From a virus: a DNA stretch of 45,524 bases. The stretch is taken from the IMG/VR virus record IMGVR_UViG_3300027857_000029, positions 1 through 45,524 of that record. One strand, written 5' to 3'. This document shows, one piece after another, positions 1,975 to 24,741 of the stretch. Within the stretch, counting starts at the first letter, position 1, and the number at the start of each line of letters is the position of its first letter. The position numbers and the translations under genes were made by a program. Below the pieces are notes generated by a model. That model was not told where the DNA came from, ran no database searches, and was given only the letters and a program-made list of their open reading frames with translations.

Positions 1975-1999
1975 AGCCCGAGGAGGCCCGTCTCGGTCC
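1975..1999 (-). promoter_or_regulatory. conserved 25-nt dyad motif, copy 1 (gp4-like leader)
   Basis: On the minus strand: GGACCGAG, then ACGGGCCTC, then CTCGGGCT. CCGAG can pair with CTCGG. Copies occur at 8526-8550, 19922-19946 and 24717-24741, always 25-34 nt upstream of a start codon. The stem changes as a pair between copies (GAG/CTC here, GTG/CAC in two others). Candidate phage promoter or leader RNA element. Confidence 0.6.
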
Positions 2000-2046
2000 G
2001 GCTGGCGTCACTCTACCATTCGGCGTCGGATAATCTCAACGCTCCA

Positions 2047-2079
2047 TAAAAGAACCCCGCCAACCGGGGGGAGGCGGGG
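2047..2079 (-). terminator. rho-independent terminator after the 295-aa gene
   Basis: Minus strand: CCCCGCC (2079-2073), loop, GGCGGGG (2061-2055), then TTCTTTT. A seven-base-pair GC stem followed by a U-rich run. It lies 42-74 nt downstream of the stop at 2121, and the gp4-like leader begins beyond it. Confidence 0.75.
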
Positions 2080-2120
2080 CACAGGTTAGGGAGGAAAAAA
2101 CGTCCAAGACCCCGGACGCA

Positions 2121-3008
2121 TCACTGAACCGGAGCGTCGCCACCCTGTTCGGCTGGGATGGATTCGGTCAATTGCGCTTTGCGCCGAGCCAGACCCGCCT
2201 TGATCGCCTCGGAGTGGTCGCGCTTCTGTTGCGCGGTCCGGACGACTGGCTTGCGAGCCTTCTTGGGTGCGGCCTTTTTGGCTTTGACCGGGCGCAGCGA
2301 CTGCTCGCTGTATTCTTCGATGATCAGCGGTGGGCCGTCCATCTTTTCCAGCGCACCGAGGGCCTTCTCCATCAGGACGGCCAACTTATCGACCTTGGAA
2401 TCAAGGCCGACCAGCTTATCGACCTTCGCTTCCAGGTCTTCGATGCGAAGCTGATCCAGGGACTTCTGCTCCCACGGCGCTGGATGAGCCAGAGGGTCAG
2501 GCGACACGCTCTCAGTGAGGGCAGGAATTGGCGCGTTGGGCACCACTTCGATGTTGAGCGCTGGCGCCGTATCCTCCGCGACAATCTGGGTCATGGTCGG
2601 ACCGCCGAGCACCTTCTGCTCTTCCTCGGCGTTGTTGCAGAGCGTGCCCTGCACCCACTTTGGGTATTCGAGCGGCTTGTAAGTCATCTGATTCGGGATC
2701 TGGCCGGCACCGACAGCACGATCAAACGCCGCAGCGTCGCACTTCCCCTGGCTCTCGTAGCCGAGCGAGGCGTGATATTCCTCATCCGCCTTGGTCTTGA
2801 CCAGCACGGGGGGAAACCGGACCGGCGTGCCGATCCCATGATAGGTGAACCCGGATGGATGCTTGATCGGATCGCTCGGCTTACCCGGCTGATATTGCGG
2901 GTGCGTCATCATCTTCGGGTATTCTTTGTAGTCGATGGTGGGTCTGCCTGCGGGGATAATGCCCGCTCCTGGGACCTGCATCGTTCTTTGTGCGGTTTGG
3001 TCAATCAC
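2121..3008 (-). CDS. unknown structural-region protein with coiled coil and basic tail
   Basis: 295 aa. The start is taken as GTG at 3008, which overlaps the upstream stop (GTGA) and has AGGAAG upstream; ATG at 2981 is an alternative. The N-terminal half is Pro/Tyr-rich (TIDYKEYPKMMTHPQYQPGK, YPKWVQGTLCNNAEEE). A predicted coiled coil follows (LDQLRIEDLEAKVDKLVG, DSKVDKLAVLMEKALGALEK). The C-terminus is Lys/Arg/Ala-rich (VKAKKAAPKKARKP). Function is not recognised. Its place between head genes suggests a virion-associated or assembly protein. Confidence 0.6.
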   Translation of the reverse strand: MIDQTAQRTMQVPGAGIIPAGRPTIDYKEYPKMMTHPQYQPGKPSDPIKHPSGFTYHGIGTPVRFPPVLVKTKADEEYHASLGYESQGKCDAAAFDRAVGAGQIPNQMTYKPLEYPKWVQGTLCNNAEEEQKVLGGPTMTQIVAEDTAPALNIEVVPNAPIPALTESVSPDPLAHPAPWEQKSLDQLRIEDLEAKVDKLVGLDSKVDKLAVLMEKALGALEKMDGPPLIIEEYSEQSLRPVKAKKAAPKKARKPVVRTAQQKRDHSEAIKAGLARRKAQLTESIPAEQGGDAPVQ

Positions 3009-3244: not shown

Positions 3245-3945
3245 GATGCTGGTTCCATTTCAGCGAGTTTCTGCTTGGCCATTTCGACAGCCGGCGCAAA
3301 GCTGGCGGTCCAACGCTTCCGCCCCAGGTGGCTCAAGGTGATTTCGGGATCGACCCACATCCGGCCGCCCTTGGCCCGCCACCGGTTGGCGAAGTCCACG
3401 TCCTCGCCCCAGCGCTGGCCCTCGTAATACCCGGTGTGGAAGATGTTCTTGATGTGCTCGGTCACCCCATCGGACCGGTGATGCGGGTAGGTCGGCTGAT
3501 CGGCGGCCATCAATTCGATGGCGTGCCGTTTGATCCGCATGAAACCGGTCGGCAGGAACACCGCCTCAACCAGTCCGTTCTTCTCAATCAGTTTGCGGTT
3601 GCCGTCGGTCTCCAGCGAAATCGGGAAGCCGATCGGGTCCTGCTTCAGCGGGTAGACGCCGCCGACAATGTCTTCCTTGCGGTCCAGCAATTTGAGAACG
3701 CCATCCGACGTCCAGCCCAGGTCATCGTCAATGAAAAACAGGTCGGTCGCTTGCGGGAATTCATGAAGGAATTGATGGCAGAGCACGTTTCTCGCGTGGT
3801 CGATAAAGCAGATCCCGGCCTGAAGACGAACCGTGTGATCAATCCCACGCTGGCTCAGCGCCACGCTGGTGTGAATATAGGAACTGAAATAATCGAGATC
3901 GACTTTGGCACTCAGGCAGGGCGTAGCGAACAGAACGAACATCAT
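3241..3945 (-). CDS. GT-A fold glycosyltransferase-like protein
   Basis: 234 aa. The key motif DLFFIDDDLGWTSDGVLKLL contains the metal-binding DDD of GT-A enzymes. Supporting motifs are DIVGGVYPLKQDPIGF, FLPTGFMRIKRHAIE and GEDVDFANRWRAKGGRMWVD (the ED...F.R region near the acceptor site). AAGGAG stands upstream of two adjacent ATGs, of which the second (3942) has the better spacing. It follows the decoration-protein gene, so a role in sugar modification of virion proteins is an inference from position. Its substrate cannot be read from sequence. Confidence 0.75.
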   Translation of the reverse strand: MMFVLFATPCLSAKVDLDYFSSYIHTSVALSQRGIDHTVRLQAGICFIDHARNVLCHQFLHEFPQATDLFFIDDDLGWTSDGVLKLLDRKEDIVGGVYPLKQDPIGFPISLETDGNRKLIEKNGLVEAVFLPTGFMRIKRHAIELMAADQPTYPHHRSDGVTEHIKNIFHTGYYEGQRWGEDVDFANRWRAKGGRMWVDPEITLSHLGRKRWTASFAPAVEMAKQKLAEMEPAS

Positions 3946-4037: not shown

Positions 4038-5114
4038 TTACGGCGTGTGCAGACCCAACTGTGCCAGCACAGCTTCGCCGCTGCTCTTCTGGGACGGCAG
4101 AACGGTGCCAGACCCAGCGGCCGGTGCAGAGGTCGAGAAATACGCGATCGAGTAAAGCTCGGCCGGTGGAACGATCGCGGCGCCAGAGTTGTTCGCGAAG
4201 TTGATCGCCAGCGTGTTGGCGGCCGACACACGCACTCCAGCCACGGTGAGGTTCGCAGTGACCGTCGGCTTGGTCACATAGACCTCGGTGCCCGCCACCA
4301 GTCCTGCCACGGTGAAGGTCTGTTCTGCGGTGGTGTTGGCCGCGACAGAGGCAGGCGTCAGGGTCTGGGTGATCCGGGTCATCACCGGAGCCGGCGAAAT
4401 CGCTGCCATCAGAGCGAAGGTGTAAGTCTCCGCCGCGGTTGGCGTGATGGTCGCCGCCGTCAGGTTTTGGAACTGGATCGCGACCTGTCCAGCGCTTGCG
4501 ACCCTGGCGTTCAGGATCATCAGACCGGCCTGAGTGGTCGGCTTGTTGACGAACACCACCTGACCGGGCTGTGCACCGGTAACGGCGAAATACTGCTCCA
4601 CGGTCGTGTTCGGACCGACCGCTGTCGGCGTCAGTGCCTGGGTCTGCGCGAGCGCAGCACCGATGGTGATGACGTCGTAGGTCTCAGTGGTGGTCGGGGT
4701 GATGGTGGCCGCGGTGTCGTTGCCGAAGGTCACCTGGACGGTGTTGGCGGCCGACACACGCCCGGTTCCGACCAAGAGGCCGGCCTGGGTCGTTGGCTTG
4801 TTCACCACGGCGACCATATCGGTGGCGAGCACCCCGGTGATGGTCATTGCCTTCTCGGCCGACGTGTTCGGGCCAACCGCTGACGGGCTCTGGGTGGTCG
4901 CCCAGATCGTCACGTTGGCCGTTACCCGCTGCGGCAGGCCGTTGGTGCCCGGCTGCACCACGGGAGCGGTGCCGAAGAACCCGACCTTGTCGGCAGCCGA
5001 CCGGCCCAGACTGGTTCCCGGCCCACCCATTTCACCGTTGCCGTCCGACAACTGACGGACGTTTGAAGTCGTCGTTACAGTGCCGACAGTGGTCGGCTCG
5101 TTCGTTCCAGACAT
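4038..5114 (-). CDS. probable head decoration protein with three repeated beta domains
   Basis: 358 aa. An N-terminal segment (residues 1-65) ends in SLGRSAADKVGFFGTAPVVQ. Three tandem copies of an approximately 80-residue beta-rich domain follow. Each copy carries an NTxxEQxFxVxG strand, a VYVxKPTxxAxL strand and RVSAANTxxIxFxN (e.g. AVVNKPTTQAGLLVGTGRVS in copy 1, FVNKPTTQAGLMILNARVAS in copy 2, VYVTKPTVTANLTVAGVRVS in copy 3). A short tail closes the protein. It lies two genes downstream of the coat gene, the usual place for a decoration protein. Assignment as decoration rather than another surface protein is inference. Confidence 0.6.
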   Translation of the reverse strand: MSGTNEPTTVGTVTTTSNVRQLSDGNGEMGGPGTSLGRSAADKVGFFGTAPVVQPGTNGLPQRVTANVTIWATTQSPSAVGPNTSAEKAMTITGVLATDMVAVVNKPTTQAGLLVGTGRVSAANTVQVTFGNDTAATITPTTTETYDVITIGAALAQTQALTPTAVGPNTTVEQYFAVTGAQPGQVVFVNKPTTQAGLMILNARVASAGQVAIQFQNLTAATITPTAAETYTFALMAAISPAPVMTRITQTLTPASVAANTTAEQTFTVAGLVAGTEVYVTKPTVTANLTVAGVRVSAANTLAINFANNSGAAIVPPAELYSIAYFSTSAPAAGSGTVLPSQKSSGEAVLAQLGLHTP

Positions 5115-5491
5115 TAGTCTGCTCCTTCAATGCGCTGCACCGGGAGGACTTCCGCCATTCCCCAGTTTGGCCGCTTACCCTTGATGACCTGGCGATTGAT
5201 TGTTTCGGCGATGGAACCGCACGCATCGCGCCCCATCATGGGCGAGGCATGGAACATTTCCCCGGTGGTCTTGTCCGGAACCATGACCTGGAAAAGCTGA
5301 TCTTTCTTTTCTTTGGTCATTTTCGCCGCGATCTCGGGTGGCGTCGGACGGCCATTGGCCTCCTGCTCCATCTCCGACCGCATTGCTTCCGAATAGGCAC
5401 CGTTCAGGCGGCGGCGAGCCAATTCACCCAAGAACCGGTTCGCCGGACGCTTCTGAAACTGCTCCAGCCGACGTTGCGCGCGGTTACTCAT
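5114..5491 (-). CDS. small coat-adjacent protein, unknown
   Basis: 125 aa from ATG 5491, which shares one base with the coat stop (TGATG). A longer frame upstream lies within the coat gene in another register and is rejected. The protein is charged and helical (NRAQRRLEQFQKRPANRFLG, AYSEAMRSEMEQEANGRPTP) and ends GKRPNWGMAEVLPVQRIEG. The stop overlaps the start of the decoration gene. Tight coupling to coat suggests a head-assembly role, but no family is recognised. Confidence 0.65.
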   Translation of the reverse strand: MSNRAQRRLEQFQKRPANRFLGELARRRLNGAYSEAMRSEMEQEANGRPTPPEIAAKMTKEKKDQLFQVMVPDKTTGEMFHASPMMGRDACGSIAETINRQVIKGKRPNWGMAEVLPVQRIEGAD

Positions 5492-6737: not shown

Positions 6738-6839
6738 TCCCCGGCCGTTCCGGGTGTGGTCTGAAACCCCGCCGTGGCGGGTAAGGTAGGCAAACCCCGC
6801 CGTAGCGGGTCGTTGGTCGTCATCCCCGCCGAAGCGGGT
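6738..6839 (-). promoter_or_regulatory. four tandem hairpins in the coat mRNA leader
   Basis: Minus strand has three near-identical units ACCCGC-TTCG-GCGGGG (6839-6824), ACCCGC-TACG-GCGGGG (6810-6795) and ACCCGC-CACG-GCGGGG (6782-6767), spaced 28-29 nt, plus a diverged fourth, CCCGG-AACGG-CCGGG, at about 6753-6738. The second and third are followed by GTTT. They separate the 132-aa gene from coat and could be partial terminators, RNase processing sites or stabilising structures that set coat expression apart from scaffold. Confidence 0.6.
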
Positions 6840-7238
6840 CTATTTCCGTTTGCCGGCTGGCTTTGACGCCTTCGGCACGGTGATGACAGCCTTGCCGGCG
6901 TTCACCGCAGCAAGTTTGGCATGACCGTATTTCTTCACGGCTGAAGTCCGCATGACGAACTCGCCGACCTGGGCCGGGATTTTGCCGTGGTCTTTGCCTA
7001 CCGGCTTGCCCGAGACCTTCTTGATGAGGCCGCCTTTGGCTGCGCCCGTCTCGCTGGTCACCATGTGGTCGCGAGCGGCGCGAGCCTTGTCGTCGATGTC
7101 AGGCCGATCCGGCGATGCAGGCGCGGACGTGTTCATCCGCTTATCGGGGTTGTCCCGCATCGGACGATTTTTGCTCAGGTTTTCGATCCAGGGATTGGAG
7201 CTTTTGCCCAGGTCCAGAGTGCCAACGGTTGAGGCCAT
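6840..7238 (-). CDS. small head-region protein, unknown
   Basis: 132 aa; the ATG at 7238 shares one base with the scaffold stop (TGATG). The N-terminus is disordered and charged. The C-terminus has VGEFVMRTSAVKKYGHAKLA followed by AVNAGK. This GEFVM..AVKKYG...L..(L/V)N.G signature is seen in many phage virion or tail-associated proteins. Its function is not established. The C-terminus is basic (KASKPAGKRK). Confidence 0.65.
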   Translation of the reverse strand: MASTVGTLDLGKSSNPWIENLSKNRPMRDNPDKRMNTSAPASPDRPDIDDKARAARDHMVTSETGAAKGGLIKKVSGKPVGKDHGKIPAQVGEFVMRTSAVKKYGHAKLAAVNAGKAVITVPKASKPAGKRK

Positions 7239-8491
7239 CAGTGCAGTCCCCCGTTCGGGAAGAATGGGCGCCGCTCTGCCATCGTCGCCTGGGTGCGCCG
7301 CTTGTAGTAGCTGTCCATGTCCTCATCGTCGGGGCTGGTCTGCACCGGTTCGTTCCGGGCGCCGTCGATCGGCTTGATGGGAGCCGGAATACGGGTGCGC
7401 GTCCGGGCCGTTGGCGCAGACAAACGACCGGAGATTTTCATGATCTCGCCGTATTGCAGGATCGGGTTTTGAAGCTCGGCGATCCGCACCGATTCCTCGG
7501 GATTGAGGGCGAGCCAATAAGCGACGTCGGGACCGTTATCGGTTCGCGTCATGGCCGTTGCCATCACTTCGGTCACCGTGGGTCCGCCGTCGGCCGGCGC
7601 CCGCATCACGATCTCGTCGTAGTCGCCATACTTCTCCTGCGCTGCGGCGGTCTTCGCCTGCCATTCGAGCGCGATCTTGGCATTCTCTTCGGCGACCAGA
7701 GCTTCCTGCTCTTCCTGCGCCTTCTTGTCGGCGGCTGACTTTTCTTCGGCGGCGATACGATCGGCCTCGGCCTTTTCGGCAGCCTGTCTCTTATCGAATT
7801 CACGCTGCTGATCGCGCTTGCCCCACTCAACCAGTGCTTCGGCGAACTGATCCGGGTCATCGAAGTCTTCACGGCTCGGCCGCGGGTCGGCTTTCGGCTC
7901 TTCGCGAGGTCCGGCAGCCTCAAGTTCGGCGATTTTCTTCGCCAGCGCTTCCCGCTCGGCCGCGACCGCCTCTTTCTCCCTGGCGACACGTGCGGCCTCG
8001 GCCTTGGCCGCCTTCACTTCATCACGGAACTTGCCGACGACATTTGCGTTGGCAGCTTCCCAGGCCTTGTCCCATTTCTCGTCGCCGACCTCGGCCTTGG
8101 CCGCATCACGGATAGCCTGCACACGCTCGGCAGACTTCTTGCGGATGTCGGCTACCTGCTTCTTGAAGGCGAACGGTGCGTTCTCATCGACCTGGATGCC
8201 GTCGTCCTCGTCCGGCTTGCCCTCATCGGGTTTCGCCTTCGCATCGACCGGCTTCTCTTTGCCGTCCTCGGTCAGTTCGGCTGTAGCAGGATCGCCTTTG
8301 CGCGCCGCGGCTGCGAGTGCTGCCTCTTCAGGCGATATCTCTTTCGGGACGCCGGCAGTCTGGTCGCCCTGATCATTTGAAGCTGACTCGGGTGGCCGAA
8401 CAATCTGGGCCAAGGGTGCATCTGAAGTTGCAGCCAACGGGATCGAAGGATTGAAGATGATGTCGTGTTGCGGACGAGCGGCAAGCGCCAT
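7238..8491 (-). CDS. capsid scaffolding protein
   Basis: 417 aa, highly charged, Ala/Lys/Glu-rich. Acidic disordered N-terminus (KPDEGKPDEDDGIQVDE), long predicted coiled coil from about residue 110 to 290 (EKEAVAAEREALAKKIAELE, KAEADRIAAEEKSAADKKAQ), then PESVRIAELQNPILQYGEIM-type segments and a C-terminal DEDMDSYYKRRTQ...ERR. This closing Y..RR....R arrangement matches scaffolds of P22-like podoviruses, where a basic C-terminal helix-turn-helix binds coat. Gene order (immediately before coat) supports the call. A conserved 25-nt motif lies 34 nt upstream of the ATG. Confidence 0.85.
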   Translation of the reverse strand: MALAARPQHDIIFNPSIPLAATSDAPLAQIVRPPESASNDQGDQTAGVPKEISPEEAALAAAARKGDPATAELTEDGKEKPVDAKAKPDEGKPDEDDGIQVDENAPFAFKKQVADIRKKSAERVQAIRDAAKAEVGDEKWDKAWEAANANVVGKFRDEVKAAKAEAARVAREKEAVAAEREALAKKIAELEAAGPREEPKADPRPSREDFDDPDQFAEALVEWGKRDQQREFDKRQAAEKAEADRIAAEEKSAADKKAQEEQEALVAEENAKIALEWQAKTAAAQEKYGDYDEIVMRAPADGGPTVTEVMATAMTRTDNGPDVAYWLALNPEESVRIAELQNPILQYGEIMKISGRLSAPTARTRTRIPAPIKPIDGARNEPVQTSPDDEDMDSYYKRRTQATMAERRPFFPNGGLH

Positions 8492-8525: not shown

Positions 8526-8550
8526 CACCCGTGGATGCTCGTCACGGTCC
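8526..8550 (-). promoter_or_regulatory. conserved 25-nt dyad motif, copy 2 (scaffold leader)
   Basis: Minus strand: GGACCGTG, ACGAGCATC, CACGGGTG. The stem is CCGTG/CACGG, so both arms changed relative to the gp4 copy while pairing is kept. It lies 34 nt upstream of the scaffold ATG, in the 103-nt gap after the HNH gene. Confidence 0.6.
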
Positions 8551-8594
8551 GAATAGTCCGCTCTCTAAACTGTTGGATTCCCTGGCGTCAAGTC

Positions 8595-9191: not shown

Positions 9192-9266
9192 TGGAGCCCG
9201 GTCAGGGAATCGAACCCTGGTCGGCCGCTTACGAGGCGGCTGCTCTCGCCACTGAGCTAATCGGGC
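9192..9266 (-). tRNA. tRNA-Thr (anticodon CGU)
   Basis: 75 nt including encoded CCA. Anticodon stem GCCGC/GCGGC with loop CUCGUAA (CGU reads ACG). T-loop UUCGAUU; the acceptor stem has one A-C mismatch. Last tRNA of the island in transcription order. Confidence 0.92.
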
Positions 9267-9269
9267 AGT

Positions 9270-9350
9270 TGGAGGGCCAGGTGGGAATCGAACCCAACCA
9301 TTGACACGGGTTAAGAGCCCGCCGCGCGCACCAGTGATCGCATCTGGCCC
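9270..9350 (-). tRNA. tRNA-Lys (anticodon CUU)
   Basis: 81 nt with encoded CCA. Acceptor GGGCCAG/CUGGCCC is perfect. Anticodon loop CUCUUAA (CUU reads AAG). The D region is expanded and the variable region is longer than usual; the other Lys tRNA (11715-11798) shares the expanded D region. Confidence 0.82.
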
Positions 9351-9354
9351 GTAT

Positions 9355-9431
9355 TGGTGCGCCACCCCGGAGTTGAACCGGGAAAACTCCCGCTTTTGAG
9401 GCGGGCGACTTTACCTTTTGCCCAGTGGCGC
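9355..9431 (-). tRNA. tRNA-Leu (anticodon CAA) with short variable arm
   Basis: 77 nt with CCA. Acceptor GCGCCAC/GUGGCGC, anticodon stem CCCGC/GCGGG with loop CUCAAAA (CAA reads UUG). The D arm (GGCAAAAGGUAAAGUC) resembles bacterial Leu tRNAs, but the long class II variable arm is absent: only about five nucleotides separate anticodon and T stems. Confidence 0.82.
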
Positions 9432-9434
9432 AAT

Positions 9435-9508
9435 TGGTGACCCAGGGTTGAATCGAACAACCGCGTCCAACCTTCGGAGGGTCGGCGCCGAAATCCATCG
9501 GCTGGGCC
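9435..9508 (-). tRNA. tRNA-Arg (anticodon CCG)
   Basis: 74 nt with CCA. Anticodon stem CGACC/GGUUG, loop CUCCGAA (CCG reads CGG). Acceptor GGCCCAG/CUGGGUC. Its first base directly follows the stop codon of the endonuclease gene at 9509. Confidence 0.9.
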
Positions 9509-10141
9509 TTACCACGTTACTTCGTCCAGGTTTCTGCCGGGCCGGCCGTTCTGGCCAGGGACAAGCCTTATGATGACGTAACGCTTCCCGTCAAACGATT
9601 CAGGCCCAACCCGCACAACCTTATCAACGGACGGTAAATATATCAGAATGATGTCGATTTCGGCCTTGGAATAGGTCTTTCCGTTCCTTTTCGCCAATCC
9701 CAAGTGGACGGAACACCCAACCATCTGTCGGTCGCAATACTTGATTTGGGCTCGCAACAGACGCTCGCCATCGTCAAGAACAGCGTCATAGCGGCATTCG
9801 ATTGTTGGCCGGCTGATAATGAACCCCAACTCCGCCGCACGAAGCGAGCATTTCAACATCGCAATTTCCCCCTTCTGGACCGTGGTCAGGCCGCGAATGC
9901 CGGCGTTCGATAGAGGGATCGCACCACGCATAAGGCCGGCGGTAATCGCTTTCGAGCGGCGCAGTGCCTCTAAACGTGTTTTTTCGCGTTCGTCCTTTGT
10001 CAGCGGATGTCTGCGTAACACCAAAGAGGCCGAGGACTTCGCTATTCCCATTCGAGCGGATATCGCGGAAAGCGGCAGCCGCTCCTCGACGCGAAGCCGG
10101 ACCATCTCGGAGATGATCGAAGTTGACAATCGTTTTGGCAT
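9509..10141 (-). CDS. PD-(D/E)XK homing-endonuclease-like protein with N-terminal HTH
   Basis: 210 aa. Residues about 10-50 look like a helix-turn-helix (RVEERLPLSAISARMGIAKS followed by SASLVLRR). The second half fits the PD-(D/E)XK fold of I-Ssp6803I-type intron endonucleases: a helix with Glu (KGEIAMLKCSLRAAELGFII), then IECRYDAVLDDG (catalytic Asp) and LLRAQIKYCDR (QxK). The family's known members cut tRNA genes, and this gene stops one base before the tRNA-Arg(CCG) 5' end. I saw no intron in the flanking tRNAs, so it is probably a free-standing homing nuclease. Confidence 0.65.
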   Translation of the reverse strand: MPKRLSTSIISEMVRLRVEERLPLSAISARMGIAKSSASLVLRRHPLTKDEREKTRLEALRRSKAITAGLMRGAIPLSNAGIRGLTTVQKGEIAMLKCSLRAAELGFIISRPTIECRYDAVLDDGERLLRAQIKYCDRQMVGCSVHLGLAKRNGKTYSKAEIDIILIYLPSVDKVVRVGPESFDGKRYVIIRLVPGQNGRPGRNLDEVTW

Positions 10142-10196
10142 AGCGAACCGGGAATTGTGTAAAACGTCTCGGTTCGAATGTCGATTAGTTTTTGGG

Positions 10197-10265
10197 TGAC
10201 CCGCCGAGGGATCGAACCTCGCGACATGGGCTTAGAAGACCCTGTCCGCAGCCAGCAGGCGGGCC
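10197..10265 (-). tRNA. tRNA-Arg (anticodon UCU)
   Basis: 69 nt to the discriminator A. Loop CUUCUAA (UCU reads AGA) on a weak stem (three strong pairs). The D arm is shortened. The 3' end reads ACCC, so CCA is not encoded, unlike nearly all others in the array. Confidence 0.75.
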
Positions 10266-10271
10266 GAGTTT

Positions 10272-10348
10272 TGGAGACCCTGGAGGGATTTGAACCCCCA
10301 TCCTTGCGGTTCGTAGCCGCCTGCACGGTCCAATCGTGCTACAGGGCC
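10272..10348 (-). tRNA. tRNA-Arg (anticodon ACG)
   Basis: 77 nt with CCA. Acceptor GGCCCUG with its 3' partner, loop CUACGAA (ACG; would read CGU, and all CGN if A34 is deaminated by host TadA). T-loop UUCAAAU. Confidence 0.9.
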
Positions 10349-10433
10349 AATTCATGTATAGCTGCCTCAGAGGCGTGGCGGGCTGCGGAACCGACCGCAA
10401 GGGGCTTCCCTGGTGCGGGAGTGGGTTTGCCGT

Positions 10434-10829
10434 TCAATTCGGCGTTCCGGCCCTGTCGGGAACCCGCTGCGCCTCTGCCTTTGGAGCGGCCCATTCCTTC
10501 ACGGTCGGCCATTCCAGCGTGCGATCAGCGCCATACTTGGCCGCGAGCTTGGTCACCCGCACCCAGTCGATCGGGTTGCTTTGGCGACTGCCGTTGTCCT
10601 TGCCGGTCGGCTCGGTGTGCGAATACGGCCGCCCTCGCAGGAAGGCGTAGGCCAACTGGGCAGCGCGGGCCTCGGTGCGGACGTCCATCTTGCGGTGTGA
10701 GCGCAGTCCAAAGAACGTCGGCCGGCCTCTGTCGGTCTCCCGGTGGCGCCAGACCTCTTCCTCGTGACGGATTATTCTCGCCTCAGCGGCGAGCGACTTG
10801 ATTTTGACCTTCAGGTAAGCGATCGACAT
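10434..10829 (-). CDS. conserved-looking phage protein, unknown
   Basis: 131 aa from ATG 10829, chosen for the GGAG eight bases upstream; an upstream in-frame ATG lacks a site. The N-terminus is MSIAYLKVKIKSLAAEARII with RHEEEVWR, and the middle has HRKMDVRTEARAAQLAYAFL followed by RGRPYSHTEP. The protein is basic and helical, and this pattern recurs in unrelated phages as a hypothetical protein. It interrupts the tRNA array on the same strand. Function unknown. Confidence 0.7.
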   Translation of the reverse strand: MSIAYLKVKIKSLAAEARIIRHEEEVWRHRETDRGRPTFFGLRSHRKMDVRTEARAAQLAYAFLRGRPYSHTEPTGKDNGSRQSNPIDWVRVTKLAAKYGADRTLEWPTVKEWAAPKAEAQRVPDRAGTPN

Positions 10830-10925
10830 CTGATTTCTCCGTTTTATGAGCAAGCAAAAGAGCGTCATGCTCATGGTCGGAGGTCCCGTGGCCGGATGTA
10901 ATTCAGAAGTCGTGCAGTCGCTTCA

Positions 10926-10996
10926 TGGTGCCCGGTGCGAGGATCAAACTCGCCTCCCATTGGATTGAAGGCCGCGGGCCGCTCAGCGGACCGGGC
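10926..10996 (-). tRNA. degenerate tRNA (anticodon arm not canonical; possibly Glu UUC)
   Basis: 71 nt. The acceptor stem GCCCGGU/ACCGGGC, the T arm GCGAG-UUUGAUC-CUCGC and the terminal CCA are intact, but no five-pair anticodon stem forms. The best reading places CCUUCAA in the loop, like the neighbouring tRNA-Glu. Either a decaying gene or one damaged by an indel. Confidence 0.55.
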
Positions 10997-11033
10997 TTGG
11001 CCGAGATATGCCGCGCGACCGCCCGCTGGTCAA

Positions 11034-11106
11034 TGGTGCCGCGTAGGGGGATCGAACCCCTCTGCCCCGGTTTGAAGGACCAGGTGCCTCCCAGAAGCAA
11101 CGCGGC
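11034..11106 (-). tRNA. tRNA-Glu (anticodon UUC), C33
   Basis: 73 nt with CCA. Acceptor GCCGCGU/ACGCGGC; anticodon stem CUGGU/ACCGG with loop CCUUCAA, placing UUC at 34-36 and C instead of U at 33. Confidence 0.85.
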
Positions 11107-11110
11107 GAAT

Positions 11111-11187
11111 TGGTAAGCGGCCAGGGGATCGAACCCTGCTCTGTTCGGTTTGTAGGACCGATGCCATCCCCAGATGACTAGCCGCCC
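11111..11187 (-). tRNA. tRNA-Val (anticodon UAC), C33
   Basis: 77 nt with CCA. Anticodon stem UCGGU/ACCGA is perfect; loop CCUACAA (UAC reads GUA) with C33. The first ten bases overlap the 3' end of the 97-aa ORF upstream. Confidence 0.87.
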
Positions 11188-11471
11188 ATGCGACGACGTT
11201 CCCGCCGATCCCACTGAATGGACCAATGCGGCACGCCGGCCTCAATCTCAGCGCGCCCTCGTTCGGCGCTCATCGGTTCGACTGTCAGGCACCAAAGCGC
11301 CTCAAAGTCACCGTCTCCCAGGTCCCGGAGCCTTCCCCCGAGCCCCTGCTTTATGTTCAGCACTCGATACGCCCGCCGCGTCCGTGGACCGACACCCATG
11401 AGAATGTGCCCGACAGCCGGGATGCCATGGGAAAGCGGACACCGATATCTTATGCGCGGCAACTTCAGCAT
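11178..11471 (-). CDS. small protein between tRNAs, unknown
   Basis: 97 aa from ATG 11471, which stands four bases after the tRNA-Arg(CCU) CCA end. A longer frame runs through tRNAs and is rejected. Readable segments: RIRYRCPLSHGIPAVGHILM, RRAYRVLNIKQGLGG, DFEALWCLTVEPMSAERG and AGVPHWSIQWDRRERRR. Composition and hydrophobic pattern look like a real protein. No ribosome site is visible other than tRNA sequence. The stop codon lies inside the acceptor stem of tRNA-Val. Confidence 0.6.
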   Translation of the reverse strand: MLKLPRIRYRCPLSHGIPAVGHILMGVGPRTRRAYRVLNIKQGLGGRLRDLGDGDFEALWCLTVEPMSAERGRAEIEAGVPHWSIQWDRRERRRMGG

Positions 11472-11475
11472 GGTT

Positions 11476-11546
11476 TGGAGCCCTCGGGCGGGATCGAACC
11501 GCCATACCTTGGCATAGGAGGCCAGGACCGCTCCATCGGCGAGGGC
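11476..11546 (-). tRNA. tRNA-Arg (anticodon CCU)
   Basis: 71 nt with CCA. Acceptor GCCCUCG/CGAGGGC, loop CUCCUAU (CCU reads AGG), T arm GGCGG-UUCGAUC-CCGCC. Confidence 0.9.
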
Positions 11547-11549
11547 AAA

Positions 11550-11625
11550 TGGTCTGCGCGGATGGATTCGAACCACCGTCTGCTTGCTTCCAGGGCAAGC
11601 CGTCTGGCCACTGACTTACGCGCAG
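11550..11625 (-). tRNA. tRNA-Pro (anticodon UGG), C33
   Basis: 76 nt with CCA. Acceptor CUGCGCG/CGCGCAG, anticodon stem CUUGC/GCAAG, loop CCUGGAA (UGG reads CCA), with C33. Confidence 0.87.
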
Positions 11626-11630
11626 ATAAC

Positions 11631-11706
11631 TGGCGCGTCCGATGGGTGCTGCCCCCACCTAAGCCGCCTCGACAGGGCGGTGCCATCGCTGGATGACTAC
11701 GGACGC
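11631..11706 (-). tRNA. tRNA-Asp (anticodon GUC), atypical T-loop
   Basis: 76 nt with G73 and CCA. Acceptor GCGUCCG/CGGACGC, anticodon stem CCGCC/GGCGG, loop CUGUCGA (GUC). The T arm can pair (GGUG/CACC) but the loop is GGGGCAG rather than UUCRA, so elbow contacts would be unusual. Confidence 0.8.
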
Positions 11707-11714
11707 ATAGTTTT

Positions 11715-11798
11715 TGGAGGGACGGTGGGGATTCGAACCCCTTGCGGGTGGGTTAAAAAGCCACTGGCGCACCATGCTTGCCTTTACGCTACCGGCCC
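11715..11798 (-). tRNA. tRNA-Lys (anticodon UUU)
   Basis: 84 nt with CCA. Acceptor GGGCCGG/CCGUCCC (one mismatch). Loop UUUUUAA with UUU anticodon on a GUGG/CCAC stem. The D region is expanded, as in tRNA-Lys(CUU). Confidence 0.82.
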
Positions 11799-11801
11799 AA
11801 A

Positions 11802-11877
11802 TGGTTGACCCGGCCGGTGTCGAACCGGCGACCTCTCGCTTATCGGGCGAGCGCACAGAGCCGCTATGCTTCGGGTC
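11802..11877 (-). tRNA. tRNA-Ile (anticodon GAU), C33
   Basis: 76 nt with CCA. Anticodon stem CUCGC/GCGAG, loop CCGAUAA (GAU reads AUC), with C33. T arm GCCGG-UUCGACA-CCGGC. Confidence 0.88.
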
Positions 11878-11883
11878 GTCAAC

Positions 11884-11969
11884 TGGTGGGTGGGTGAGGT
11901 ATCGAACCTCGCCCCCATACGGGGAGCCGATTTACAGTCGGCGTCCGGAGCCTTCCGGTTTACCCACCC
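11884..11969 (-). tRNA. tRNA-Tyr (anticodon GUA)
   Basis: 86 nt with CCA. Acceptor GGGUGGG/CCCACCC, stem GCCGA/UCGGC, loop CUGUAAA. A class II long variable arm is present (CCCCGUAUGGGG), as expected for bacterial Tyr. Confidence 0.92.
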
Positions 11970-12005
11970 GAGAAAATACGCAAATGTGTGGATATGGAGG
12001 AACCC

Positions 12006-12368
12006 ATGTCCGACACAAAGCGACCGATCGAAGACTTCTTCGCCGCCGCCGCCACAGCAGCCGCCGCATTGGATCTGCGTCCGACTGAGGCCCGCTTGAT
12101 CCGGAATTGTCTCTGGGCCAGGTCCCAGACCCCGAACGGTTGGTTCCTTTCCCCGCCTCGGACGATCCCGTCAGCGCTGCGACTGATCGAGCGAGGCTAT
12201 CTGACCAAAGCGGCGGAACAACCAGTCTCGTTTGGAGGGCGGCTAAAAGACGGCATCGACCTGGATTTCGGGATCGTGGTCGTGCTTGAGACCGACAACT
12301 GGAACAAATTCATCACCGATGCCATCGCCGCACAAAAGGTGGAGCCCGACCAGGGAATTGAACCCTGA
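12006..12368 (+). CDS. plus-strand small protein inside the tRNA array, unknown
   Basis: 120 aa from ATG 12006, preceded by GGAGGAACCC. Readable features: an Ala-rich helical N-terminus (IEDFFAAAATAAAALDLRPT), LIRNCLWARSQTPNGWFLSP and LRLIERGYLTKAAEQPVSFG, compatible with a small winged-helix-like domain, then DLDFGIVVVLETDNWNKFIT. It is the only plus-strand gene between 1 and 40,665 that I support. Its last 29 bases run antisense through tRNA-Thr(GGU), where the stop falls. Confidence 0.6.
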   Translation: MSDTKRPIEDFFAAAATAAAALDLRPTEARLIRNCLWARSQTPNGWFLSPPRTIPSALRLIERGYLTKAAEQPVSFGGRLKDGIDLDFGIVVVLETDNWNKFITDAIAAQKVEPDQGIEP

Positions 12369-12414
12369 CCATCCGCATACCAAGCGGAAGCACAGACCAC
12401 TATGCTAGTCGGGC
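12340..12414 (-). tRNA. tRNA-Thr (anticodon GGU)
   Basis: 75 nt with CCA. Acceptor GCCCGAC/GUCGGGC, stem UCCGC/GCGGA, loop UUGGUAU. Its 5' end is two bases from the 3' discriminator of tRNA-Ser(GCU). Confidence 0.9.
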
Positions 12415-12416
12415 GG

Positions 12417-12502: not shown

Positions 12503-12525
12503 AATTTTGATGGTCTAATTAGTCA

Positions 12526-13602: not shown

Positions 13603-13605
13603 AAT

Positions 13606-13852: not shown

Positions 13853-13857
13853 ATGAA

Positions 13858-13930: not shown

Positions 13931-13933
13931 AAA

Positions 13934-14009: not shown

Positions 14010-14011
14010 GA

Positions 14012-14086: not shown

Positions 14087-14345
14087 CATCGAAAAGTCTC
14101 CAGGACCGGGCTTGATACCGGCTGTCCTTCTTGCACGGCTCGCGAGAGGCGATTGCAATACCCGTAAGCGTCCAAACGGGCTCTACCTGATCCTCGGCGT
14201 CCACTAACCCCGACCATCGTCATAGGGTGAGGCACCTCGCGCTGGTGGTGTGTCCTTCCACACCGCCTGGAGTGGTCTAGCGAGCCGTCTGATATTCCCG
14301 TCCGGCCTCTTACACCCCCAGGGGTCGCAGGGGGGTTGCTGTCTT

Positions 14346-14421
14346 TGGAGAAGCGCCAAGGAATCGAACCTTGTCGTGCAGTTTTGCAGACTGCCGCTTA
14401 GACCACCCAGCACCGCGCTTC
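14346..14421 (-). tRNA. tRNA-Cys (anticodon GCA)
   Basis: 76 nt with U73 (a Cys identity base) and CCA. Acceptor GAAGCGC/GCGCUUC, stem GCAGU/ACUGC, loop CUGCAAA. Its first two bases are shared with the stop codon of the endonuclease gene upstream. Confidence 0.92.
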
Positions 14422-14959
14422 ATTCTGTCCATGTCTTTCCGGTCTTGATCAGGGAGATCGTGGCGGGGTTGACCGAGAAGGCCGCAGCTATAGCGGCATT
14501 TGTTTGCCCCGAAGCCAGCCTTTCCCGTATTTTTCTAACGCTCTCCCAGGTCAACACCGCGCTCCCGCTGTCCTCTCCACGTTGGCCGCCACGCGGCCGA
14601 CCAGTCCGCCGGGACTTACGCCAACCTGCCATGTAGGACCGGTTAAACGTGACACAAACCTCGCACCGACAACCGCGCCGATAAGACGCATGGGACCCAT
14701 GCCCTTTGGCTTCCGGCCAGTGCTCCGCACTGTGACACTGTCGGCAAAGCAATATGCACTTTTCGAGTTCCGCCTCGATGACCTCGATACGGCAACGGAG
14801 TAAAGTCGTCAGGTTGGCCAACTTCGAGGCTTTGTCGGGATGATGGAAATCCAGCCCATCTGTCCCGCCACATCGAACACATCGAGCGCCCTTCTGGGCG
14901 AGTGCCATCGCCTTTCTGTCGGCGTAATGGGCTCGAAATTGTTCAGCAGTCCATGCCAT
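14420..14959 (-). CDS. HNH endonuclease with C-terminal HTH
   Basis: 179 aa from ATG 14959; longer frames run into tRNA-Trp. HNH core: CVRCGGTDGLDFHHPD and CILLCRQCHSAEHWPEAKG. A Cys-rich linker follows (SHASYRRGCRCEVC, RSYMAGWRKSRR), then a helix-turn-helix (VRKIRERLASGQTNAAIAAA, FSVNPATISLIKTGKTW) for DNA recognition. The stop TGA overlaps the first two bases of tRNA-Cys. Nuclease plus HTH is a common homing-endonuclease layout. Confidence 0.82.
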   Translation of the reverse strand: MAWTAEQFRAHYADRKAMALAQKGARCVRCGGTDGLDFHHPDKASKLANLTTLLRCRIEVIEAELEKCILLCRQCHSAEHWPEAKGHGSHASYRRGCRCEVCVTFNRSYMAGWRKSRRTGRPRGGQRGEDSGSAVLTWESVRKIRERLASGQTNAAIAAAFSVNPATISLIKTGKTWTE

Positions 14960-14995
14960 CCGTGGATGTGTGCGTGAGCGAATTAAGTAAGTCAA

Positions 14996-15066
14996 TGGCA
15001 CCGGAGGAAGGAATCGAACCCTCGTCCTGGGTTTTGGAGACCCAGTTGACACCACGTCGCCCCGGT
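14996..15066 (-). tRNA. tRNA-Trp (anticodon CCA)
   Basis: 71 nt with G73 (Trp identity) and CCA. Acceptor ACCGGGG/CUCCGGU, stem UGGGU/ACCCA, loop CUCCAAA. Confidence 0.92.
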
Positions 15067-15070
15067 AACT

Positions 15071-15144
15071 TGGCTCTCAGGGACGGACTCGAACCGCCAT
15101 GACCGCGTTAACAGCGCAGCATATTGCCATTATATGACCCGAGA
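15071..15144 (-). tRNA. tRNA-Asn (anticodon GUU)
   Basis: 74 nt with G73 (Asn identity) and CCA. Acceptor UCUCGGG/CCUGAGA, stem CUGCG/CGCGG, loop CUGUUAA. Confidence 0.92.
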
Positions 15145-15151
15145 AAACAAA

Positions 15152-15226
15152 TGGAGCGGGCGACGGGATTCGAACCCGTGTCATCAGATTGGAAGTCTGA
15201 GGCCCTAGCCCCTGGACGACGCCCGC
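15152..15226 (-). tRNA. tRNA-Gly (anticodon UCC)
   Basis: 75 nt with U73 and CCA. Acceptor GCGGGCG/CGCCCGC, stem UCAGA/UCUGA, loop CUUCCAA. Confidence 0.93.
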
Positions 15227-15232
15227 AAAATC

Positions 15233-15307
15233 TGGTGCCCGAGGGGGGAATCGAACCGCCTACGCGCTGGTCTTCAACCAACCGCTCTACCAATGAGCTA
15301 CTCGGGC
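15233..15307 (-). tRNA. tRNA-Phe (anticodon GAA)
   Basis: 75 nt with A73 and CCA. Acceptor GCCCGAG/CUCGGGC, stem GUUGG/CCAGC, loop UUGAAGA. One mismatch in the T stem. Confidence 0.92.
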
Positions 15308-15442
15308 TTTGGTGGACGTCTCTCCGCCCTGTCACGCGTCATATTCCGCGTCGTCAATAGTGTGCGCCCACTGCAAGCCTACTAGGCCATCAACCCCTTG
15401 AGCAGTTCAGCCCACTCTCAAGTCCGGCCGTTCGCACGGCAT

Positions 15443-15521
15443 TGGTAGCGGGGGCAGGATTTGAACCTACGGTCTTCCGGGTATGAACCGGATGAGGACA
15501 GCCGGACTCCTCTACCCCGCA
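15443..15521 (-). tRNA. initiator-like tRNA-fMet (anticodon CAU)
   Basis: 79 nt with CCA. Begins UGCGGGGUAGAGGAG and ends GGUUCAAAUCC-UGCCCCCGC-UACCA, closely matching bacterial initiator tRNA. Position 1-72 is an unpaired U-U, corresponding to the C-A mismatch that lets formyltransferase act and keeps EF-Tu off. Loop UUCAUAC. Only two of the three G-C pairs typical of the initiator anticodon stem are kept (the third is C-G). Confidence 0.85.
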
Positions 15522-15524
15522 TCA

Positions 15525-15595
15525 TGGTCGCTTGCCCCAGTGTCGAACTGGGCGAGCCGGCGTATGAAACCAGCGTGCTCGCCGGAGCGCAAGCG
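15525..15595 (-). tRNA. tRNA with CAU anticodon (elongator Met or Ile2)
   Basis: 71 nt with CCA. Acceptor CGCUUGC/GCAAGCG fully paired, T arm CCCAG-UUCGACA-CUGGG, loop UUCAUAC. Identity depends on whether C34 is converted to lysidine. Confidence 0.85.
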
Positions 15596-15601
15596 GTATC
15601 T

Positions 15602-15677
15602 TGGTAGGCCGTCCCCGGATCGAACGGGGGTCAGACCGTTATGAGCGGCCGGCTCTGAGCCACTGAGCTAACGGCCC
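15602..15677 (-). tRNA. tRNA with CAU anticodon, Ile2-like
   Basis: 76 nt with CCA. The 5' half GGGCCGUUAGCUCAGUGGCU and loop CUCAUAA resemble bacterial tRNA-Ile2, which reads AUA after lysidine modification by TilS; elongator Met remains possible. Acceptor GGGCCGU/ACGGCCU. Confidence 0.85.
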
Positions 15678-15683
15678 AAAAAC

Positions 15684-15758
15684 TGGAGCGGCGTCCCGGT
15701 GTCGAACCGGGTGATCGACCTTGGCAAGGTCGCAGGCAAACCGTCGCCCACACGCCGC
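15684..15758 (-). tRNA. tRNA-Gly (anticodon GCC)
   Basis: 75 nt with U73 and CCA. Acceptor GCGGCGU/ACGCCGC, stem CGACC/GGUCG, loop UUGCCAA. Confidence 0.93.
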
Positions 15759-17543: not shown

Positions 17544-19892
17544 TCACCCTTTCTTTTCCGGTGCCACTTTCAGCGGCTTCCCGTCCGGCGCCAAAGTCCA
17601 TGTGCTTCCATTCTGGAAACGGGTGTGGCGACCGGGCTTCAGATGTTGGATAGCCTCTGGCGGGGGTGTTTCTTCATTCTCACCACCTTGGTCATTGGCG
17701 GCCATGGCGCTCTCCACCGATTTGCCCAGTTCGGCCGCGCCTTTGCCGAGGGCTTGCATTTGACTTGAAATATGAGTGTTGATGTTGGCGATTGCCGCTT
17801 CCTGGATTTTCGCCATTTTTGTTTCGGTGTCGGCTACGATCTTCAGCACAGCAACTTCGTATTGTTTTTGAATTTTGTCCATGTCGATGGCGCGGTCTGC
17901 ATTTTTGTCCTGCAAAGCGGCCATGGCCTGGCGAAGCTGCTCGTTCAGCGCCTTTAGTTGGGTGTCCTGCGACTGGAGCAGCGCCTGGATCTGCGGCGGC
18001 ACATCTTTCATTTCCGGCGCCATAAGCCCAGGCGGGATAGTTTTCGCCAAACGGGCGGCGATCTTCTCCGCACCCGGCCAGTCCTGCTCGGCCGCCAACA
18101 GGTCGGCGACCAGCGCCGCGGTGTTGGGCAGCGCCCGCATGAACGCCATCATGTTTTCCGAGGCTTCGATCCGCTTCGTCGCGTAGCTCGGGCCGATCGT
18201 CACCGTGACGCCGTATTTGCCGAACGTCGGGTTGAAGAGCTTGCGGCTCTTGCCGTCGCGCTTCTTTTCCTCGCCGGTCGGCTTCATCAGGTTCGGATCG
18301 ACCCGGACCTGCTCTTCCTTGTCGTCCTCGCGGAGAATGGTGACCACCCGGCGCTCGTTGTAGATTTTCGGGATGATCTCGACCAGGATTTCACCGCAGC
18401 GGCGCAGCGACTGGGCCAGGTTGTCCACGTAGTGGGCAGCGCCGATGTCGCCGGCACGGCGCAGTTCCCGGATCGCCTTGCCGCTCTCGTCGATCATCCG
18501 CTCGTTGGCCGTGGCGTCGAACCGGATACCGGTGACCGCCATCATATCCTGGGCAGCGCCTGCCGAGGCCTGGACGACGCCCTGAGGGATGCCGGCCATG
18601 GGCTGCCGCTGCGGTGGCGGGGCCGGCGTGTTGCCGATGCTGGTGCCCTTGTAGCTCAGATACGGCTGGTTCTTGACGTTGGCGTTCTTCCACTCGTCCT
18701 CGTGGCCTTCGATCTGGCCCTCTTCGACAATCCATGGGGATTTCGGCTGGAGCGCGATCAGTTCGGTTTCCGACGTCTTCCAGTAGTTATACATCCGCTG
18801 AGGGTCTTTGGCGTGCCGGATCAGACCGGACAGCTTGAGCTTGCCCTCGATGTCGATCGAATTGCCGATGACCCGGATGACCGGGATGGTGGTGCCGATC
18901 CACTCGCTCTCTTCGAGGATATCCACGGCCGTGGCTTTATACCACATGACCTTGGGCACTTCGCTCTCGCGCTCTTCCTCGATCCAGAGTTGCGTGCCGC
19001 GCTTCACTCTGGCCTTGGTGAACTCGTCCAGTTCGTCTTCCCAGCCGACATGGCCGTTACTCAGCTTTACCAGCTTCCTTTTCTCGGTCTTGATGACAAA
19101 ATATTCAACGATCCGGATTTCGTCTTTGGTTGCCCAGCTTTGATACTTCTCACCGATACCGGCATCGTTGAACGGGACTTCCACCGCATCGGGCCACCGC
19201 TCGCGGAATTCCTCGCGGGGGATCATGTCGCTGATGAAGCACCAGCGTGCGTCAGCGCCAGTGGGGTCCTGACACATCGGGTCCATGTAGACGGTGAAGG
19301 CGTTGCGGACCCGCTTGATCTGGATGATTTGGTCGAAGGTATCCGGCGCCTCGTAGTCGGTGATGATCCGGAAATAGCCCCAGCCCATGGTCACGGCATC
19401 GTCGAACGCGGTGTCATAGGCTCCGTCGGCGTGGCAATCTCGTTCAATGAACCGGATCAGGCCGCGATACATTTTGGCGACTTCGGGATCGCCCATGTCG
19501 CCGGTTGGGCTGATATTGATGCTCGGCCGGTTCTCACGCTGGCCGTTGACCACCTGGGCCACGAACGTCGGCAGCTTGTTGATGGTCAGGCACGGCCGCT
19601 TGTCCAGGTTCCGCTGGGCCATGACTTCGGTCGGCCACTGGTTGCCGGCGAGAAACATCTTGTCGTCGAGCCCGGATTTCCGGTTCTCGGCTTCTGCGGA
19701 GATGACCTGTTCCATGCGTTTGCGCATGGCCTCAAGGATCTTCTCCTTGCTGTCCTCATCGTCGTCGTAGCCCAGCATGGTGCCCTTTTTGTCGGGCAAC
19801 CCGAAGGACGGGGCGATCTTGATCATCGCCACATCGGGACGCGGCATACGGATGCGGCCGTTATCGCGGGGCTTTAATGGGTCTTGCGCCAA
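17544..19892 (-). CDS. portal protein, P22 gp1-like
   Basis: 782 aa with a TTG start at 19892; no better start with a ribosome site is visible. Motifs: LDDKMFLAGNQWPTEVMAQR, NLDKRPCLTINKLPTFVAQV, VNGQRENRPSINISPTGD, FDDAVTMGWGYFRIITDYEA, YMDPMCQDPTGADARWCFIS, KDPQRMYNYWKTSETELIAL and ATANERMIDESGKAIRELRR, all typical of the P22 portal family. The C-terminus has a long helical barrel-like region (LQSQDTQLKALNEQLRQAMA). Twelve copies would form the DNA-packaging vertex. Gene order terminase-portal-scaffold-coat holds, but with tail genes and the tRNA island inserted. Confidence 0.9.
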   Translation of the reverse strand: MAQDPLKPRDNGRIRMPRPDVAMIKIAPSFGLPDKKGTMLGYDDDEDSKEKILEAMRKRMEQVISAEAENRKSGLDDKMFLAGNQWPTEVMAQRNLDKRPCLTINKLPTFVAQVVNGQRENRPSINISPTGDMGDPEVAKMYRGLIRFIERDCHADGAYDTAFDDAVTMGWGYFRIITDYEAPDTFDQIIQIKRVRNAFTVYMDPMCQDPTGADARWCFISDMIPREEFRERWPDAVEVPFNDAGIGEKYQSWATKDEIRIVEYFVIKTEKRKLVKLSNGHVGWEDELDEFTKARVKRGTQLWIEEERESEVPKVMWYKATAVDILEESEWIGTTIPVIRVIGNSIDIEGKLKLSGLIRHAKDPQRMYNYWKTSETELIALQPKSPWIVEEGQIEGHEDEWKNANVKNQPYLSYKGTSIGNTPAPPPQRQPMAGIPQGVVQASAGAAQDMMAVTGIRFDATANERMIDESGKAIRELRRAGDIGAAHYVDNLAQSLRRCGEILVEIIPKIYNERRVVTILREDDKEEQVRVDPNLMKPTGEEKKRDGKSRKLFNPTFGKYGVTVTIGPSYATKRIEASENMMAFMRALPNTAALVADLLAAEQDWPGAEKIAARLAKTIPPGLMAPEMKDVPPQIQALLQSQDTQLKALNEQLRQAMAALQDKNADRAIDMDKIQKQYEVAVLKIVADTETKMAKIQEAAIANINTHISSQMQALGKGAAELGKSVESAMAANDQGGENEETPPPEAIQHLKPGRHTRFQNGSTWTLAPDGKPLKVAPEKKG

Positions 19893-19921
19893 TTTGGTTG
19901 ATCCGCTTTGCAGCGTGGAAG

Positions 19922-19946
19922 AACCCGAGGAACCCCGTCTCGGTTC
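19922..19946 (-). promoter_or_regulatory. conserved 25-nt dyad motif, copy 3 (portal leader)
   Basis: Minus strand: GAACCGAG, ACGGGGTTC, CTCGGGTT. CCGAG pairs with CTCGG. It lies 29 nt upstream of the portal TTG in the 97-nt gap after the Gly-rich gene. Confidence 0.6.
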
Positions 19947-19989
19947 GGCCGGGACACAATAACACCGCCGATGACGAAATGGTCAATCA

Positions 19990-24277: not shown

Positions 24278-24290
24278 TTGAGGGGCGTCC

Positions 24291-24689
24291 TTAGTTGCGG
24301 AACTGGACGAGATTTGGCGACGAGCACCCGGCGGTTGAGAACAGGCTGGGGACGTTCTGGGTGCCGGTCAGGTCCACCGTGTCACTGCTTAGGTTGGTGC
24401 CACCGAACTGTTCGCCTGAGGTCGCCGTCGCGGTTCCGCCGCCCCAGTTGACAGTGAACTGGCAGCCGCTTCCTGGTGCGATAAAGGTCAGTCGCCCGAA
24501 CGAGCCCGGCTGCGGCAACGCGCCAGAGCCTGGACTCATGGTCACGTTGGCGGCTGTCAGTGGCGTGCTGACACCTGCCGTGAGCGCCATGGTGCCCTGG
24601 TAGGTTGTTCTACCTGTGGTGACCGCCTGCTGTGCAAAGGCGGAACCGGGAACCAGCAACAAAAGGAAAAGGAGGAACCGGAACAACAT
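24291..24689 (-). CDS. secreted small protein of the tail region
   Basis: 132 aa from ATG 24689 (a GTG at 24719 would lie inside the conserved motif). Residues 1-19 (MLFRFLLFLLLLVPGSAFAQ) form a clear Sec signal peptide with an A-x-A cleavage site. The mature part is a small beta-rich domain (TYQGTMALTAGVSTPLTAAN, GRLTFIAPGSGCQFTVNWGG) with two Cys residues. It starts a transcription unit with the tailspike, collagen-like and Gly-rich genes if the upstream motif is a promoter. Confidence 0.68.
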   Translation of the reverse strand: MLFRFLLFLLLLVPGSAFAQQAVTTGRTTYQGTMALTAGVSTPLTAANVTMSPGSGALPQPGSFGRLTFIAPGSGCQFTVNWGGGTATATSGEQFGGTNLSSDTVDLTGTQNVPSLFSTAGCSSPNLVQFRN

Positions 24690-24716
24690 GGATGCACCAG
24701 GAAAAAACTGTCTGGA

Positions 24717-24741
24717 CACCCGTGAAGGCCCGTCACGGTTC
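24717..24741 (-). promoter_or_regulatory. conserved 25-nt dyad motif, copy 4 (tail gene leader)
   Basis: Minus strand: GAACCGTG, ACGGGCCTT, CACGGGTG. CCGTG pairs with CACGG. It lies 27 nt upstream of the ATG at 24689. Confidence 0.6.

Follow-up and report, generated by a model that had tools for sequence, protein, structure and literature searches.

The stretch of viral DNA analyzed here (the window; IMG/VR record IMGVR_UViG_3300027857_000029, 45,524 nt) is, judging from its neighboring genes, a fragment of a P22-like podovirus. It encodes members of the portal (phrog_156), coat (phrog_283), scaffold (phrog_8865), gp4/Ad3-like (phrog_12985/637), and terminase (phrog_2) families. The late region between the scaffold and portal genes contains 26 tRNA genes predicted by ARAGORN (9192-15758, minus strand), with HNH and PD-(D/E)XK endonuclease ORFs scattered through the array. 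A tRNA overlooked by ARAGORN lies within it at 12418-12502 (minus strand); this sequence scored 50 bits against the Rfam tRNA-Sec model (cut-off 47), has a 7-bp D stem, and yet carries a GCT (Ser) anticodon, which would make it a phage-encoded serine tRNA of a SelC-like or allo-tRNA-like kind. On the strand opposite the late genes, an AAA+ ATPase gene of unassigned role (42435-44180, plus strand; phrog_8638, PF00004) is located beside a phrog_11021 gene.

A scan of the window with GRACCGWGACGRGNNTYCWCGGG produced four exact matches, all on the minus strand (1977-1999, 8528-8550, 19924-19946, and 24719-24741) and where the initial annotation had placed four copies of a hairpin-capable motif; no fifth match was found in the window when up to three mismatches were tolerated. 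Chance expectation for the pattern was 0.07, and 0 of 100 dinucleotide shuffles reached four copies. Random intragenic occurrence was likewise not observed, as every copy lies outside credible genes, in a gap preceding a start codon. The closing G of the CGGG is 27, 36, 31, and 29 nt from the start codon in copies 1-4, respectively, which upholds the proximity to start codons reported earlier with a slightly different range (25-34 nt, end points being counted slightly differently). A terminator said to precede one of the gaps found no support around copy 2. The first base of the element proper lies 2 nt upstream of the motif as originally drawn (minus-strand positions 2001, 8552, 19948, and 24743), and the extra 5′ bases form a YCG that pairs with a CGR inside the presumed loop. 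The four elements are as follows:

1978-2001, minus strand: pseudoknot copy 1 (S1 CCG:CGG, S2 CCGAG:CTCGG), leading the gp4/head-tail adaptor-like gene at 1209-1949 (phrog_12985/phrog_637)
8529-8552, minus strand: pseudoknot copy 2 (S1 TCG:CGA, S2 CCGTG:CACGG), leading the scaffold gene at 7238-8491 (phrog_8865)
19925-19948, minus strand: pseudoknot copy 3 (S1 CCG:CGG, S2 CCGAG:CTCGG), leading the portal gene at 17544-19892 (phrog_156)
24720-24743, minus strand: pseudoknot copy 4 (S1 CCG:CGG, S2 CCGTG:CACGG), leading a gene for a 132-aa protein without a family (ATG at 24689)

By its base-pairing pattern, each copy is a 24-nt H-type RNA pseudoknot with the consensus NCG-RA-CCGNN-N-CGN-GNNTN-NNCGG-G. 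From 5′ to 3′ it consists of S1 (3 nt), L1 (2), the 5′ arm of S2 (5), L2 (1), the 3′ arm of S1 (3), L3 (usually 5), the 3′ arm of S2 (5), and a final G; S1 forms when the bases just 5′ of the previously described stem pair with the loop of that stem. The loop lengths are those typical of classical H-type pseudoknots. Some members of the clade carry a 22-nt form (L1 of one base, no L2) or a form with an L3 of 6-7 nt. Strictly conserved are A5, the CCG:CGG pairs and G13, and G15 and T18 are mostly so. Two earlier candidate structures were abandoned. A simple hairpin (5-bp stem, 9-nt loop) was superseded by the pseudoknot when GCG:CGC and GCT:AGC variants of S1 turned up, and an additional GRA/TYC covariation (R2-Y17), drawn from the four window copies alone, was broken in the relatives L002 and L004.

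Relatives were gathered from IMG/VR by pattern scan, portal search, and coat-protein search and contributed further elements, in which compensatory changes affect both S1 and S2. The stem covariation described in the window (CCGAG..CTCGG and CCGTG..CACGG) held and was extended in relatives by CCGCG..CGCGG and CCGGG..CCCGG, while S1 occurred as CCG:CGG, TCG:CGA, GCG:CGC, GCT:AGC, GCC:GGC, CCC:GGG, and ACC:GGT. In an alignment of 23 elements (A1), three to four Watson-Crick types and no broken pair were seen at each of pairs 1 and 3 of S1 and pairs 4 and 5 of S2, and covariation was 0.546, compared with 0.096 in shuffled and at most 0.114 in slid alignments, the set having been selected for pairing. 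Because of this preselection, an independent test was carried out on sites picked solely by A-CCG-N13-CGGG, without selection on S1. A complete S1 of three pairs was found at 25 of 33 sites at which both free S2 pairs matched, vs. 3 of 118 other sites (Fisher p = 1.6e-18), and the three exceptions resemble true members that carry one weak S2 pair.

These patterns also bear on the suggestion that the motif is bound as DNA. CCGNG-N9-CNCGG is indeed a dyad, as expected of an operator for a dimeric DNA-binding protein, but all four bases occur at N and are always matched, the center is conserved and asymmetric, and the pairs of S1 and of the helix P3 described below fall outside the dyad. We therefore give the dyad-binding factor of the initial annotation almost no credence. 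Another of its suggestions, a leader RNA hairpin, was borne out in the RNA-type covariation; the fold, however, is a pseudoknot followed by a second helix and not a single hairpin.

All close relatives (coat identity ~70% or more) of which long stretches could be read carried the element (examples are G001-G008, L017, L106, L160, L161, and L164-L166), with the exception of L167, which had no match. More distant relatives mostly or entirely lacked it, with none in G009 and G012 and one doubtful match in G010, and it was absent from the sole relative in a bacterial genome (Rhodanobacteraceae, portal 51%). Presence in close relatives and absence from most or all distant ones indicate a feature of the clade and not the chance repeat of one genome. 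The nearest isolated phages are only ~40% identical in coat and portal. Since late-region DNA searches of isolated phages were empty, leader searches gave chance matches only, and the best coat match was 40%, no named phage is known as a carrier. The genes directly 3′ of elements encode portal, scaffold, coat, gp4-like adaptor, DNA ejection protein (phrog_598), and tail fiber/collar, in addition to one HNH endonuclease and a handful of proteins of unassigned function.

Immediately after S2 comes a second helix, P3, whose first base is the G of CGGG. P3 covaries independently, and compensatory change exceeded chance in P3 as in S1 and S2, as in an RNA with conserved secondary structure. P3 pairings included GTG..CAC, GTT..AAC, GCG..CGC, GCTAA..TTAGC, GCAA..TTGC, and GCATCTC..GAGATGT. 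Mean pairing was 0.86 for native helices and 0.41 when 5′ arms were permuted, and the native value was reached in 0 of 2000 permutations. For this arm-swap test, some start codons had been re-assigned manually. By folding, 25 of 28 leaders possessed an SD-like trimer or better, which was paired inside P3 in 22 of those 25, and the median distance from the end of P3 to the start codon was 3 nt. By contrast, ordinary AAGGAG sites precede several genes inside operons of the window. In the window, P3 takes these forms:

1962-1977, minus strand: P3 of copy 1, GCTAA-TTAGC, with the GGA falling outside the helix
8494-8528, minus strand: P3 of copy 2, GTG..CAC plus AATCC..GGGAT, masking an SD-like GGGA
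19897-19924, minus strand: P3 of copy 3, GTT..AAC, masking an SD-like GCGGA
24692-24719, minus strand: P3 of copy 4, GTGTCCAG..CTGGtGCAT

The portal leader of the relative G006 (L082:16650-16715) also contains an apparent 8-codon peptide, MSRVPPVR, the stop codon of which overlaps the portal start (TGATG); the overlap suggests translational coupling.

Directly upstream of the elements we found a sigma70-like promoter, TTGnnn-N18-TAnnnT, in which the 18-nt spacer is dominant. Promoter scores of the 40-nt stretches preceding 37 elements averaged 5.9, compared with -1.0 at random positions (z = 12.9), and the score maximum coincided exactly with the first base of the pseudoknot. The boxes have the -35 and -10 hexamers, 16-19 nt spacing, and fixed distance of sigma70-type promoters, the end of the -10 hexamer usually lying 5-11 nt, and typically 6-9 nt, from S1. 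Four such promoters precede the window copies:

2010-2039, minus strand: promoter of copy 1, TTGAGA-N18-TAGAGT, 8 nt from -10 to pseudoknot, the second-best such site in the window
8562-8591, minus strand: promoter of copy 2, TTGACG-N18-TAGAGA, from box scoring
19956-19986, minus strand: promoter of copy 3, TTGACC-N19-TATTGT, with an extended TG, the third-best such site in the window
24749-24779, minus strand: promoter of copy 4, TTGCGA-N19-TAGATT, from box scoring

The strongest sigma70-like site of the window belongs to a divergent pair at 37446 (minus strand) and 37452 (plus strand), which may be early promoters and lack a pseudoknot.

A host-type promoter 5-11 nt upstream implies that the motif is transcribed, and from the box spacing the transcript would be expected to start at, or a few bases from, the first base of S1. 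This arrangement argues against the earlier interpretation of the motif, with its 3′ GGG, as a phage-specific promoter. Such a promoter would be DNA read by a phage RNA polymerase, either T7-like or, with hairpins on single-stranded DNA as its signal, N4-like. The repetition before late genes, the GGG end, and the capacity to form a hairpin are what it would offer, but the host-type boxes and the 9-nt loop speak against it, and covariation in S1, S2, and P3 is not expected of a duplex promoter. Moreover, a search of eight genomes for a phage polymerase or sigma-like factor revealed neither a T7-type polymerase (PF00940; a weak test, as the control was also silent and the records are possibly incomplete) nor sigma70 region 2. 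We regard a phage-specific promoter as very improbable.

With the element beginning near position +1 of each late promoter, a put-like antiterminator is conceivable, in which the nascent pseudoknot and P3 would bind the elongating host polymerase in cis so that terminators are ignored in long late operons. Phage HK022 has a similarly placed RNA, putL, of ~70 nt immediately behind PL; it is built of two stems, the first of which forms a triplex, and acts without a phage protein (PMC9378689). However, neither sequence nor Rfam similarity was found, and a narrow distance to the start codon with P3 over the RBS would be unexpected if the RNA bound polymerase only. That the element is always tied to a start codon favors translation over pure antitermination, which we consider rather unlikely.

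A possible, though still doubtful, explanation is 5′-end protection, whereby the pseudoknot would bury the triphosphate end of abundant late mRNAs and block pyrophosphohydrolase and 5′-end-dependent RNases, with P3 as a spacer or an ordinary RBS hairpin. The predicted start is a few nt from S1 and would leave few unpaired 5′ bases; in support, bacterial mRNA is stabilized by 5′-terminal stem-loops, and purified B. subtilis RppH requires two or more unpaired nucleotides at the 5′ end (PMC3997798). Yet a plain hairpin would suffice for this purpose, whereas the strict A5, CCG:CGG, and G13 and the mostly kept G15 and T18 demand a specific fold or binder, and the covariation and RBS placement of P3 would be left unexplained. 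Tandem structures ahead of the coat gene would also suit a stabilizer. Some relatives have 2-4 tandem pseudoknots or hairpins in the scaffold-coat gap; these are pseudoknots in L160, L161, L163, and G006, with a 41-nt period in L161, and the same gap of the window holds an associated array outside the core element:

6739-6839, minus strand: four tandem ACCCG-S-NNCG-S-GGGG tetraloop hairpins

No promoter was found ahead of the tandem pseudoknots in the cases scored (G006); copies of this kind would not be needed for a strict 5′-end role and count against the leader function preferred below. Given its 5′-terminal position, the element may also stabilize mRNA.

The interpretation we prefer, in which we place about even confidence, is that the late virion mRNAs of one clade of P22-like podoviruses share the element as a cis-acting 5′-leader RNA, which gates their translation and perhaps also their stability. 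Transcription from the host-type sigma70 promoter would start at the first base of S1 or a few bases away, and the nascent RNA would fold into the H-type pseudoknot for which covariation was observed. As P3 starts on the base next to S2, it could stack on S2; as its 3′ strand usually holds an SD-like GGA or GGAG and ends ~3 nt before the start codon, it may close the RBS by default or hold it in a defined geometry. The pseudoknot would then serve to recognize and anchor either an RNA-binding protein of phage or host origin or the ribosome itself, and the bound factor would either open P3 or keep it shut. Coordinated translation of portal, scaffold, coat, adaptor, ejection, and tail genes would result, and burial of the mRNA 5′ end in S1 may slow 5′-end-dependent decay. 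The fixed place beside the start codon across unrelated genes points to a function in translation initiation, and the absence of the element from the possible early promoter pair at 37446/37452 counts in favor of a late leader. Counted against it were the weak P3 of several leaders (-4 to -6 kcal/mol), the GGA outside P3 in copy 1, and the HNH endonuclease among the targets. A phylogenetic profile for a binding protein returned several small proteins restricted to the clade (relatives of L072:2929-3312, 3425-3637, and 5093-5392), and none of them matched a family. More tentatively, the leaders may define a post-transcriptional late regulon, in which one trans-acting phage or host factor would free translation of the structural genes together through the pseudoknot and P3. 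Late timing would then be set at the RNA level, with transcription from host sigma70 promoters.

Compact, strongly covarying leader repeats thus precede virion genes across the clade and join a host-type promoter to the RBS in a leader of <70 nt. If the interpretation is confirmed, they would constitute a previously undescribed RNA family, and also a rare case of late phage genes coordinated by a common mRNA leader, in place of a late sigma factor, a phage polymerase, or Q. Searches of Rfam 15 returned only tRNAs for the window, nothing for copy 3 up to E = 5, and chance matches only for the tandem array of a relative. Like preQ1 and other small pseudoknot riboswitches, the element is a small H-type pseudoknot beside an SD sequence, but here the SD lies outside the pseudoknot, the genes are not metabolic, and Rfam gave no match. 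The STAXI motif (RF01728) comprises tandem arrays of two or three pseudoknots (PMC2864571), as in the scaffold-coat gap of relatives, but its gene context is different and the relatives' array did not match Rfam. The stabilizing stem-loops of ompA and papA occupy the extreme 5′ end of the mRNA, as here, but are simple and not a repeated family with conserved loops. HK022 putL and putR share two structured domains in ~70 nt, putL lying directly behind a phage sigma70 promoter; they serve early operons, however, and form two long stem-loops with no pseudoknot and no contact with a start codon, whereas the first domain here is a pseudoknot. The put RNAs suppress termination in cis by way of the β′ zinc-binding domain of the polymerase. 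The closest parallel in form is the translational operator of gene 32 in T4, T2, and RB69, a ~28-nt H-type pseudoknot 5′ of the RBS (PMC535899, PMC3014915), which a 2010 review of T4 described as perhaps still the only viral pseudoknot in translational autoregulation (PMC3014915). As in that operator, an H-type pseudoknot is found here 5′ of the RBS of phage genes. The T4 operator has one target, the gene for a ssDNA-binding protein that itself binds the operator, and an unstructured, A+U-rich UUAAA tract over the RBS; here there are many unrelated virion genes, the tract is absent and the leaders are structured, with a GC-rich pseudoknot followed by a covarying helix that covers the SD. Because these systems differ and Rfam 15 holds no matching family, we call the element, as defined by its sequence, a new family of phage 5′-leader RNA.
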